From Polyangiaceae bacterium (GTDB lineage Bacteria; Myxococcota_A; Polyangia; Polyangiales; Polyangiaceae): a stretch of 64,000 nt of DNA. The stretch lies in contig JAKLKA010000020.1 of assembly GCA_023150915.1 (NCBI GenBank), forward strand, positions 1 to 64,000. The letters run 5' to 3'. This document shows, piece after piece, positions 60,757 to 63,990 of the stretch; within the stretch, counting starts at the first letter, position 1, and each line of letters begins with the position of its first letter. The notes below the pieces were generated by a model. The model was not told the DNA's origin. It was given only the letters and a program-made list of their open reading frames with translations, and did no database searches. The translations under genes and the position numbers were made by a program.

Positions 60757-62097
60757 TTGGCTTCGGTCCCGGATCCGGTCCCCCTGTTCTCTGCCCGCGA
60801 GAGTCACGCGCCGCTCGAGCCGGCGCTCGCTGCGGCGTTTGCGCGTGTGCTCCAAAGTGGGCGGTTCGTGCTGGGCGAAGAGGTTGCCGCGTTCGAGCGC
60901 GAGCTCGCGGCGTGGCTCGAGGTCGATGCCGACTGCGTGGTCGGCGTGTCGTCGGGCAGCGACGCGCTGGTGGCCGCGCTGCTGGCCCTCGATGTGGGTG
61001 CAGGTGCCGAGGTGGTCACCACGCCCTTCACCTTCGTGGCCACCGCCGAGGCCATCGCGCGGGTCGGCGCGCGCCCGGTGTTCGCCGACATCGATCCCGT
61101 CACCCTGAATCTCGATCCGGCCGCGGCCCGTGCCGCGATCACCGAGCGCACCCAGGCCGTCATCCCGGTGCACCTGTTTGGCCACCCCGCCCCGATGGAC
61201 TTCGGCAGCGTGCCGGTCATCGAGGACGCCGCCCAAGCCATCGGCGCGCGCACGGCAGGCAAGCGGGTGGGCACGATCGGGGCTGCGGGCTGCTTCAGCT
61301 TCTTCCCCACCAAGCCTCTGGGGGCGCTGGGCGATGGCGGCGCGGTTGTCACCCAAAGTGGCGGTCCAGCCGACCGCGTGCGGCGCCTCCGGCAACATGG
61401 CTCGGCAGACCGCCGCGCGCATCTCGAGCTTGGCGGCAACTGGCGGCTCGACGCGCTTCAGGCCGCCCTCTTGCGTGCGAAGCTGCCGCACCTCGCCGGC
61501 TGGATCGATCAGCGGCGAGCCCTGGCCGCCGCCTATTCCCGCGCGCTGGCCGACCTCGACGCGATATCGTTGCCCGCCGCCGCCGTCGGCAACGAGCCCG
61601 CCTGGGCGCATTACGTGCTGCGCGTCCACGACGGACGACGCGACGGACCACGCGACGGACCACGCGACGGACCACGCGACGGACCACGCGACGGACGACG
61701 CGACGGACCACGCGACGGACCACGCGGCGGACGACGCGACGGACCACGCGACGGACCACGCGACGGACCACGCGGCGGACGACGCGACGGACCACGCGAC
61801 GGACGACGCGACGGACCACGCGACGGACGACGCGACGGACCACGCGACGGACCACGCGACGGACCACGCGACGCGCTCGCGCAGCACCTCGAAGCGCACG
61901 CCATCGGATGCGCCGTCTACTATCGACGGCCGCTGCATCTCGAGCCGGCCTTCGCGCACCTCGGCTACGCGCGCGGCGCGTTCCCCCACGCCGAGCGCGC
62001 GGCCGACGAGCTGATCGCGCTCCCGCTCTTTCCCGGCCTGGACGCCGACCGCCAGGGCCGCGTCATCGACGCCGTCCGCAGCTTCTTCCGACCGTGA
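60757..62097 (+). CDS. DegT/DnrJ/EryC1/StrS family sugar aminotransferase with in-frame 20-unit (DGPR/DGRR) insertion
   Basis: GVSSGSDALVAALLALDVGAGAEVVTTPFTFVATAEAIARVGARPVFADIDPVTLNLDP; VIEDAAQAIGARTAGKRVGTIGAAGCFSFFPTKPLGALGDGGAVV; C-terminal GCAVYYRRPLHLEPAF. TTG start. Confidence 0.9.
   Translation: MASVPDPVPLFSARESHAPLEPALAAAFARVLQSGRFVLGEEVAAFERELAAWLEVDADCVVGVSSGSDALVAALLALDVGAGAEVVTTPFTFVATAEAIARVGARPVFADIDPVTLNLDPAAARAAITERTQAVIPVHLFGHPAPMDFGSVPVIEDAAQAIGARTAGKRVGTIGAAGCFSFFPTKPLGALGDGGAVVTQSGGPADRVRRLRQHGSADRRAHLELGGNWRLDALQAALLRAKLPHLAGWIDQRRALAAAYSRALADLDAISLPAAAVGNEPAWAHYVLRVHDGRRDGPRDGPRDGPRDGPRDGRRDGPRDGPRGGRRDGPRDGPRDGPRGGRRDGPRDGRRDGPRDGRRDGPRDGPRDGPRDALAQHLEAHAIGCAVYYRRPLHLEPAFAHLGYARGAFPHAERAADELIALPLFPGLDADRQGRVIDAVRSFFRP
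61630..61869 (+). repeat. 12-bp minisatellite (gacggaccacgc and variants), 20 units, inside an aminotransferase gene
   Basis: 240 bp; in frame encodes DGRR, DGPR x4, DGRR, DGPR x2, GGRR, DGPR x3, GGRR, DGPR, DGRR, DGPR, DGRR, DGPR x3. Confidence 0.97.
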
Positions 62098-62116
62098 CCG
62101 TGCCGCGCCGTGGGTG

Positions 62117-62720
62117 CAGGATGTCCGAAACGCGGACAAGTTGGGGTGACCGCGCCACGCGGTGGGCACAGGTTGTCCGCCACGCGGACAAGTCATGCAG
62201 ACCGCGCCACGCGGTGGGCACGGGTTGTCCGCCACGCGGACAAGTCATGCGGCCCGCGCGACGCGATGGGCACAGGTTGTCCGCCACGCGGACAAGTTGG
62301 GGTGTCCGCGCTACGCGGTGGGTGCAGGTTGTCCGCCGCGCGGACAAGTCATGCGGCCCGCGCCACGCGGTGGGCACAGGTTGTCCGCCACGCGGACAAG
62401 TCATGCAGCCCGCGCCACGCGGTGGGTGCAGGTTGTCCGCCGCGCGGACAAGTCATGCAGCCCGCGCCACGCGGTGGGCACAGGTTGTCCGCCGCGCGGA
62501 CAAGTCATGCAGCCCGCGCGACGCGGTGGGTGCAGGTTGTCCGCCACGCGGACAAGTCATGCAGCCCGCGCCACGCGGTGGGCACAGGTGTCCGCCGCGC
62601 GGACAAGTCATGCGGCCCGCGCCACGCGGTGGGCACAGGTTGTCCGCCACGCGGACAAGTCATGCGGCCCGCGCGACGCGATGGGCACAGGTTGTCCGCC
62701 GCGCGGGCAGGGCGGCCTCG
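62117..62720. repeat. 52-bp tandem repeat array, about 12 units, each with hairpin TTGTCCGC-(CAC/CGC)-GCGGACAA (REP/BIME-like)
   Basis: caggttgtccgcc unit starts at 62117, 62169, 62221, 62273, 62325, 62377, 62429, 62481, 62533, 62585, 62636, 62688; one 51-bp step. Confidence 0.95.
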
Positions 62721-62735
62721 GCGCGCGCCCCGGCG

Positions 62736-63560
62736 TCAACGGCGAGGCAGCGGCCTCACCAGGCGGATCAAGGTGTCGGGTAGGAGCAAGCGCGAGTCGC
62801 CAAGACAGAGCTGGGCTGCTCGCAGCAGACCGGGGTCGCTGGGTTCCATCGCGATGCGACGCACCGTCCGTGTGCTCAGCCCCGCCGCATGGGCGATCGC
62901 GTTGGTGTCGCGCCAACCCTGGTGCAGTGCAAGCTGGACCACCAGCCTGCGCCGAATCGTTGGCGGGGACCACGGCGTGGCGGCGAACGCCGCTCGGCGG
63001 ATCGCATCCAGAGGCACGTTGCAGACCTCGCGCGGTGCGGATGGGACCGGCGGTGGAGTCCCGCTCACGTCGACGGACGGGTCGCCCGACACGTAGCCGT
63101 GGAGCCAAGTTCCCAGCCCGCGGCTCGGCCGCCCAAGCACCTTCCCCAGTGTCTGCTCGCTGACCCACGGGTTCAGCTCGGCGCCAAGAAGCCCGCGGTG
63201 CGTGGACCACGGCCACGAGAGCGGGTCGCGAGTCAGCTTCGCGCGGCATGGATTCAGGTGGATGTACCGTACGAGTCGCTCGAGGTGCAGGCCGTTCGCC
63301 ACCTCCTCGGGCTCGGGGACTGGCTCGAACACTCGCTTCGATGCCGTCCTCGTCAGCCCGGACAGGATCCCTCCCAGGCGGATCTTGGCGGCGTTCGGGT
63401 TCGGTTCCTCCGTGAGCAGATGAAAGTGCTCCGGCAAGATGCACGCGGAGAGCGCGAGCGGAAACCCAGCCCGAAGACGCCACCAGAGCCACCAAGCCGT
63501 CTCCGGATCGGCGAGTGGCCTTTGACCCCTGAGCGCGTGAGCGACGACATGAATCAGCAT
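62736..63560 (-). mobile_element. REP-associated tyrosine transposase (RAYT; Y1_Tnp/HUH family)
   Basis: MLIHVVAHALRGQRPL...CILPEHFHLLTEEP (HxH metal site) and RLVRYIHLNPCRAKL (catalytic Tyr helix), DnaA/HTH-like C-terminus AIAHAAGLSTRTVRRI; flanked on both sides by hairpin repeat arrays. Confidence 0.88.
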
Positions 63561-63658
63561 GTCCCCTCATCGGCCGTCCGTCGCGCGAGTTGCGTGCAAC
63601 TTTGCGGCGCTGATGCGTCCACCCTCGCTTCGCTCGGAACCGCCGCAAAGCACCGCGC

Positions 63659-63990
63659 CACGTGTCGGGCCACGCGGACAAGTCGTGCGGCTCGCGCGAC
63701 GCGGTGGGCACAGGTTGTCCGCCACGCGGCCAAGTCACGCGGCCCGCGCGACGCGGAGGGTGCAGGTTGTCCGCCACGCGGACAAGTTGGGGTGTCCGCG
63801 CTACGCGGTGGGCACAGGTTGTCCGCCACGCGGACAAGTCGTGCGGCCCGCGCGACGCGGTGGGCACAGGTTGTCCGCCACGCGGACAAGTCATGCGGCC
63901 CGCGCGACGCGATGGGCACAGGTTGTCCGCCGCGCGGCCAAGTCACGCGGCCCGCGCGACGCGGGGGGTGCGGGTTGTCCGAAACGCGGG
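63659..63990. repeat. Second array of the same 52-bp REP-hairpin repeat, about 6 units, same orientation
   Basis: Unit starts at 63711, 63763, 63815, 63867, 63919, 63971 plus a degenerate 5' unit at about 63659. Confidence 0.93.

Follow-up and report, generated by a model that had tools for sequence, protein, structure and literature searches.

A gene for a RAYT-like HUH/Y1 protein in the genome of a Polyangiaceae bacterium lies between two tandem arrays of a 52-bp unit (family A), and this arrangement raises the question of whether the protein makes and spreads the repeats beside it or is a bystander in the same intergenic region. The window analyzed here is the whole stretch of 64,000 nucleotides that carries the locus, and the features to which the text refers are the following:

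62098..62706, minus strand: left tandem array of family A, 3' to the RAYT gene, made of 12 units (52 bp, in one case 51 bp)
62098..62149, minus strand: divergent unit at the outer left end, with GAAAC in the hairpin
62736..63560, minus strand: RAYT-like HUH/Y1 protein of 274 aa, with H45-x-H47, Y99 in Y-x3-NP, and a C-terminal HTH-like region (~205-237)
63585..63598, minus strand: conserved leader element TGCACG-CAAC-TCGC, ~25-38 bases upstream of the RAYT start
63669..63989, minus strand: right tandem array of family A, 5' to the RAYT gene, made of six 52-bp units
63952..63989, minus strand: divergent unit at the outer right end, with GAAAC in the hairpin and truncated at the end of the ABC-transporter gene

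Tandem Repeats Finder delimited the left array with a period of 52, 11.7 copies, 89% matches and a score of 910, and the right one with the same period, 6.2 copies, 86% matches and a score of 467. Units are arranged head-to-tail and both arrays have the same orientation, so the two same-orientation arrays of about 12 and 6 units described in the initial annotation were borne out; its left limit of 62117 belongs to a real feature whose start is at 62098, one base past the stop codon of a DegT-type aminotransferase gene (60757-62097). The right array terminates at the stop codon of the ABC-transporter gene just beyond, and the two flanking genes are convergent. A perfect hairpin, TTGTCCGC-n3-GCGGACAA with the loop CAC or CGC, had been ascribed to each typical unit; the full 8 bp are perfect in 12 of the 18 units, and 6 bp are intact in 13. 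About half a unit away, each family A unit carries a second hairpin, CCGCG-n3-CGCGG, and the unit as a whole is a double palindrome of two alternating hairpins. The array scores are far above chance, and the only array of comparable score in the window is an in-frame repeat of the 12-bp unit CGACGGACCACG, present 20 times at 61629-61873 within the aminotransferase gene; this insert is absent from the orthologs of two congeneric genomes (G001 and G002; the window genome is G000) and hence is a lineage-specific expansion inside a conserved enzyme.

The variant GTCCGAAACGCGG, with GAAAC in the hairpin, is indeed common to the outermost units of both arrays, which are also the most divergent ones. 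A role of these units as cassette borders is unsupported, because degenerate end units are ordinary in tandem arrays and because the RAYT gene is inherited at a fixed place in a sister species. In G002, an ortholog of the window RAYT (68% identical) occupies the same ABC-transporter/aminotransferase junction with different repeats, and in G001 this junction holds a family C array and no RAYT gene. Movement of array, gene and array together as an IS200-like element, with the outer variant units as its ends, would agree with the shared variant and with hairpins that lie on the same strand at both sides, since IS200/IS605 recognise their ends strand-specifically; nevertheless, the cassette is present in a single copy in the genome, the paralogs of its gene are only 40 and 56% identical to it, and the junction in G002 holds the RAYT with other repeats. 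We regard movement of the cassette as one unit as very improbable.

The window protein carries the catalytic motifs H45-F-H47 and Y99-I-H-L-N-P, and H45, H47 and Y99 are unchanged throughout 35 relatives with 33-68% identity to it. A Pfam search of the protein gave no match to Y1_Tnp, and the NCBIfam model REP_Tyr_transpos (NF047646) matched it with an E value of 7.9e-8 and 32 bits, under the curated cut-off of 80. Below this cut-off, the same model matches 15 of the 15 members of the clade alignment, and the profile derived from this alignment matches the TnpA-REP crystal structure 4er8 with an E value of 1.6e-10. In the C-terminal part there are weak HTH matches, to HTH_23 or HTH_29 in 5 and 4 of the 15 members (best E value 4.7e-4). 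These results support the view that the protein, identified early on as an HUH-type RAYT, is a divergent relative of RAYT/TnpA-REP with a C-terminal region that resembles HTH domains, both the HUH and the HTH folds being assigned from sequence.

A scan of GTDB genomes recovered 109 relatives, of which 80 were kept, mostly from metagenome-assembled genomes (MAGs) of Myxococcota and of Oligoflexia/Bdellovibrionales. MAGs labelled Klebsiella pneumoniae (L092, L094, L098, L148) and Bifidobacterium breve (L120) also carry RAYT relatives of a kind otherwise found in myxobacteria and bdellovibrios, and these record names look wrong. At two other loci, L089 and L096, the RAYT reading frame and a tandem repeat overlap in the 3' part of the frame. 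The window genome, an 8.0 Mb draft, has two catalytically intact members, the window gene on contig C205 and a gene on C26 that is 56% identical to it. Another paralog (C123:232-1038, L078) has lost both HUH histidines and the tyrosine and has an ortholog in G002 (C31, L067); the open frame and the synteny are kept in the two species, and no 52-bp array was found beside either gene, which apparently represent a catalytically dead but retained paralog.

RAYT-like genes that are active as judged by their sequence number two in G000, one in G001 and four in G002, and the adjacent tandem-repeat families are A and B in the first genome, C in the second, and D, E and F plus a 40-bp array in the third. 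These counts support a one-to-one pairing of RAYT genes and adjacent families in the window genome and its two congeners, in line with the earlier description of the window arrays as the gene's own. Beside the C26 gene is a separate 52-bp array, family B, unlike family A in sequence; the single RAYT of G001 has a 51-bp array, and so do three of the RAYTs of G002. The fourth, orthologous to the window gene, has 40-bp and 18-bp repeats in its flanks, and the 40-bp unit is not palindromic, so the RAYT is not strictly coupled to a palindromic unit of 52 bp. Arrays of 51-55 bp also accompany relatives in four further genomes (G025, G068, G183 and G008) and at an Oligoflexia locus (L130). Apart from a GTCCGC-n3-GCGGAC core that recurs in A and B, the families have no obvious common sequence; what most of them have in common is the 51-52-bp period and a REP-like palindromic design. 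Folding of the REP-like palindrome type was found for A, B, C, F, G, H and I, whereas D, E, K, L and the 40-bp and 31-bp repeats do not stand out from shuffled sequences. RAYT relatives at L149 and L153 are flanked by 31-bp tandem repeats that contain GTAG and in this differ from the 51-52-bp families.

Conservation of the hairpin was also examined by comparing family B units between species. Three compensatory double changes, affecting both sides of a base pair, distinguish the units of G000 from those at the C15 site of G002, and the covariation score of this comparison was reached by none of 500 shuffles; these changes back the idea that the hairpin has been conserved. When units of families B and C are compared inside a single genome, pairing is retained (92-93%), with no covariation beyond that of shuffles.

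The association of repeats with RAYT relatives was compared with flanks farther away. Of 161 flanks that lie no more than 700 bp from a RAYT relative, 36 have repeats above the threshold; at a distance of 1.7-2.4 kb the figure is 1 of 137 (Fisher p about 1e-9). These genomes are rich in other tandem repeats, and the comparison is partly confounded and overstates the effect, as sequence close to the genes is intergenic and most of the distant sequence is coding. Arrays with a period of 45-60 bp gave 11 calls in 150 kb of near sequence and 1 in 255 kb of far sequence. Period lengths cluster at 21, 31 and 51-52 bp, that is, at whole multiples of ~10.4 bp (Rayleigh p 1.5e-4; the helix guided the choice of the tested period, and the loci are partly dependent on one another). 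When periods are scanned, the peak is broad, at ~10.0-10.4; we take the helical multiples as a lead only.

Arrays could also grow because hairpin-forming DNA slips during replication or recombines unequally, with the RAYT-like gene as an intergenic bystander. Tandem expansions with no link to hairpins do occur in the window genome, such as the 12-bp unit repeated 20 times in the aminotransferase gene, a 32-bp repeat of 5.7 copies near the C26 gene, a 16-bp repeat of 7 copies near the dead paralog and a 25-bp repeat of 5 copies at the C15 site, and the ortholog in G002 with its non-palindromic array points the same way. Slippage would account for local growth, but not for the dispersal of one family to many unlinked loci, and it leaves aside the one-to-one pairing of active RAYTs with adjacent families, the 51-52-bp period common to unrelated sequences and the lack of such arrays at the catalytically dead paralogs; for these reasons we consider it unlikely as the full explanation.

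The dispersal itself differs among families. In BLAST-type searches of the whole genome the family A 52-mer is nearly confined to the window locus, and just two arrays elsewhere resemble it, both diverged (C205 at 70.1 kb and C240); the genome-wide search proposed in the initial annotation did find related arrays, but the dispersal of family A is minimal and it is family B that is dispersed. Arrays of family B without a RAYT gene are present at C200, C57, C67, C26 (4.3 kb), C15, C281, C40 and C205 (70.3 kb), and family C occurs at eight further loci in G001 with a spacing of nearly always 51 bp, so that each of these two families comprises ~40 units at ~9 loci. Array counts and lengths are lower bounds in draft genomes; several contigs end inside arrays (C192, C43, C152 and C168 in G002; C200, C57 and C67 in G000). 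Units are 92% identical within an array and 80-84% identical between arrays, a signature of local expansion. At a composite site (C205, 70.1-70.6 kb), A-like units are followed by B units. The six arrays on contig C1 of G001, which lie on both sides of a dif-like site, have no consistent orientation relative to replication. This dif-like sequence, GCATAAGATAGATTATGTTAACTT, was observed in the same intergenic space in the three genomes (C15:9754 in G000, L207; C38 in G002, L271; C1 at ~2397070 in G001, L272), and it is close to a repeat array in two of them.

With neighbouring genes called by a simple rule on third-position GC, 14 RAYT-less arrays had both neighbours assigned; 10 of these have convergent genes on their two sides, and none has divergent ones (binomial p about 3e-4 against 25%). 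Comparison of orthologous sites revealed filled, empty and differently filled versions. The C40 site carries family B in G000, D and E in G002, and is empty in G001, where the two convergent genes overlap by ~10 bp; the C15 site has nine B units in G000, four diverged-B units in G002 and none in G001; and the 3' end of an S1-like gene is followed by an A-like array in G000 and by family C in G001. The RAYT genes on C2 of G001 and C4 of G002 are syntenic orthologs, and their arrays (C and F, respectively) differ in sequence but are equal in period. On C15 of G000 (L207, ~1050-1180) the 3' end of the neighbouring PQQ-repeat-like gene is also present in about five tandem copies of 25 bp that include the stop codon.

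The positional bias suggests another explanation, namely that the arrays are mainly host-function elements selected between convergent genes, as bidirectional terminators, stabilisers of mRNA 3' ends or topological sinks of the kind of gyrase-binding BIMEs, and that the RAYT made them once, long ago. The absence of arrays from divergent promoters, the occupation of the same sites by different families in different species, the compensatory changes and the binding of gyrase by BIME-2 (cited in PMC2817692) would agree with such a role; on the other hand, the gene pair at the C40 site is still in place in G001 where the site is empty, the sequences turn over rapidly, the loci are few, and the homogeneity within arrays points to recent expansion. 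We find this explanation, with the functions listed taken together, quite improbable.

The leader element upstream of the window gene, TGCACG-CAAC-TCGC, is common to paralogs whose arrays are unrelated, and in the genus of the window it has the general form NGCACG-CAAC-TNGC. A sigma-54-like GGCA-n7-TGC motif precedes 36 of 79 RAYT relatives, where 0.6 would be expected from the rest of the loci, and it is often ~27 bases before the start codon (e.g. L121, L127, L129, L138 and L140). The window leader resembles a degenerate version of this motif, for which a palindromic transposase site is the alternative reading.

Considering these data together, we favor, with a probability of roughly 0.6, that the RAYT acts in trans on single-stranded hairpin units, expanding arrays locally and seeding new ones. 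The locus would be a REPtron-like system composed of a domesticated HUH/Y1 transposase and a cognate family of ~52-bp palindromic units in head-to-tail arrays, in which the protein would recognise the unit hairpin in single-stranded DNA, as TnpA-REP does on REPs, cleave at the unit edge via Y99 and rejoin the strands. Units would be excised and duplicated in tandem beside existing ones and would occasionally be seeded elsewhere in trans, with a preference for gene 3' ends and for sites that already hold arrays; the arrays would homogenise locally and be replaced over time, while the RAYT gene would stay put and be inherited vertically. We infer binding, cleavage, strand transfer, the strand involved and the dependence on the protein, as well as RAYT activity rather than replication slippage as the maker of the arrays, from the sequences, and mobility from the comparison of genomes. 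Counting against this scheme, family A is hardly dispersed, and D, E, K and L have little folding potential. A broader version is doubtful when its parts are taken together: HTH-bearing domesticated HUH transposases in Myxococcota would maintain scattered arrays of palindromic units in trans, with unit lengths of whole helix turns (~21, 31, 52 bp), with sequences rewritten wholesale between species at conserved convergent-gene sites and with expression maybe under sigma-54. If true, maintenance would act on the array instead of the single REP, and phase-dependent double-strand binding by the HTH would be implied beside single-strand cleavage.

Among known systems, the E. coli TnpA-REP recognises REPs in single-stranded form and, in vitro, cuts and rejoins them, and the mechanism of REP dissemination remains to be elucidated (PMC8266576). 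As in the E. coli REPtron with its BIME-2, the locus combines a single-copy HUH/Y1 gene with flanking palindromic repeats that form long imperfect hairpins and recur elsewhere, mostly in intergenic regions; a cognate palindromic family is also present elsewhere in the genome for A (weakly dispersed), B and C. In contrast to that REPtron, window-type units are strictly head-to-tail with a rigid 51-52-bp period, both window arrays run one way instead of being inverted, families B and C amount to tens of copies in about ten arrays and not to hundreds of singlets or doublets scattered over the genome, and the protein carries an HTH-like region at its C terminus and scores below the cut-off of the RAYT model. 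A description as GTAG-tagged REPs was rejected, given that the GTAG form of the GT(A/G)G foot is absent from the reference units of families B-I; it occurs once per window array, and GTGG is present in several units, often within a hairpin loop or stem.

A RAYT-like core followed by a putative C-terminal HTH (HTH_23 and similar) likens the protein, by description, to TIRYTs and to subclass 2.1 of the 2018 TnpA-Y1 survey, which is reported to have a C-terminal HTH and no REP-like flanks (PMC6006769). TIRYT repeats can be grouped, and some TIR families are self-complementary (PMC3733652); they are inverted and often carry GGGGWSAS, whereas here the hairpin arrays are direct, and GGGGWSAS occurs in none of the reference units B-I and a single time in the two window arrays. 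With IS200/IS605 the locus has in common hairpins on the same strand to either side and, judged by homology, the HUH/Y1 chemistry, but there is no tnpB beside the gene, there are no multiple near-identical copies, and inheritance is vertical at a fixed site. CRISPR arrays, which are also regular tandem direct repeats with palindromic parts, were rejected: no unique spacers and no adjoining cas genes are present, and consecutive units are near-identical throughout.

Our literature search found no paper on REP arrays in myxobacteria. Long tandem arrays around the RAYT, considered in the initial annotation more elaborate than single flanking REPs, are so in comparison with most REPtrons, but the E. 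coli RAYT is already known to be flanked on both sides by tandem BIME-2 (PMC2817692), and the locus is best filed as a variant of the REPtron. What sets it apart is the combination of rigid same-orientation arrays, no GTAG foot, few loci and a putative HTH-bearing RAYT type (possibly subclass 2.1, going by the description). With one family per gene and with filled, empty and differently filled versions of one site in congeneric genomes, the gain, expansion and replacement of arrays can be followed, and a RAYT type thought to lack REPs would obtain a clear candidate substrate.
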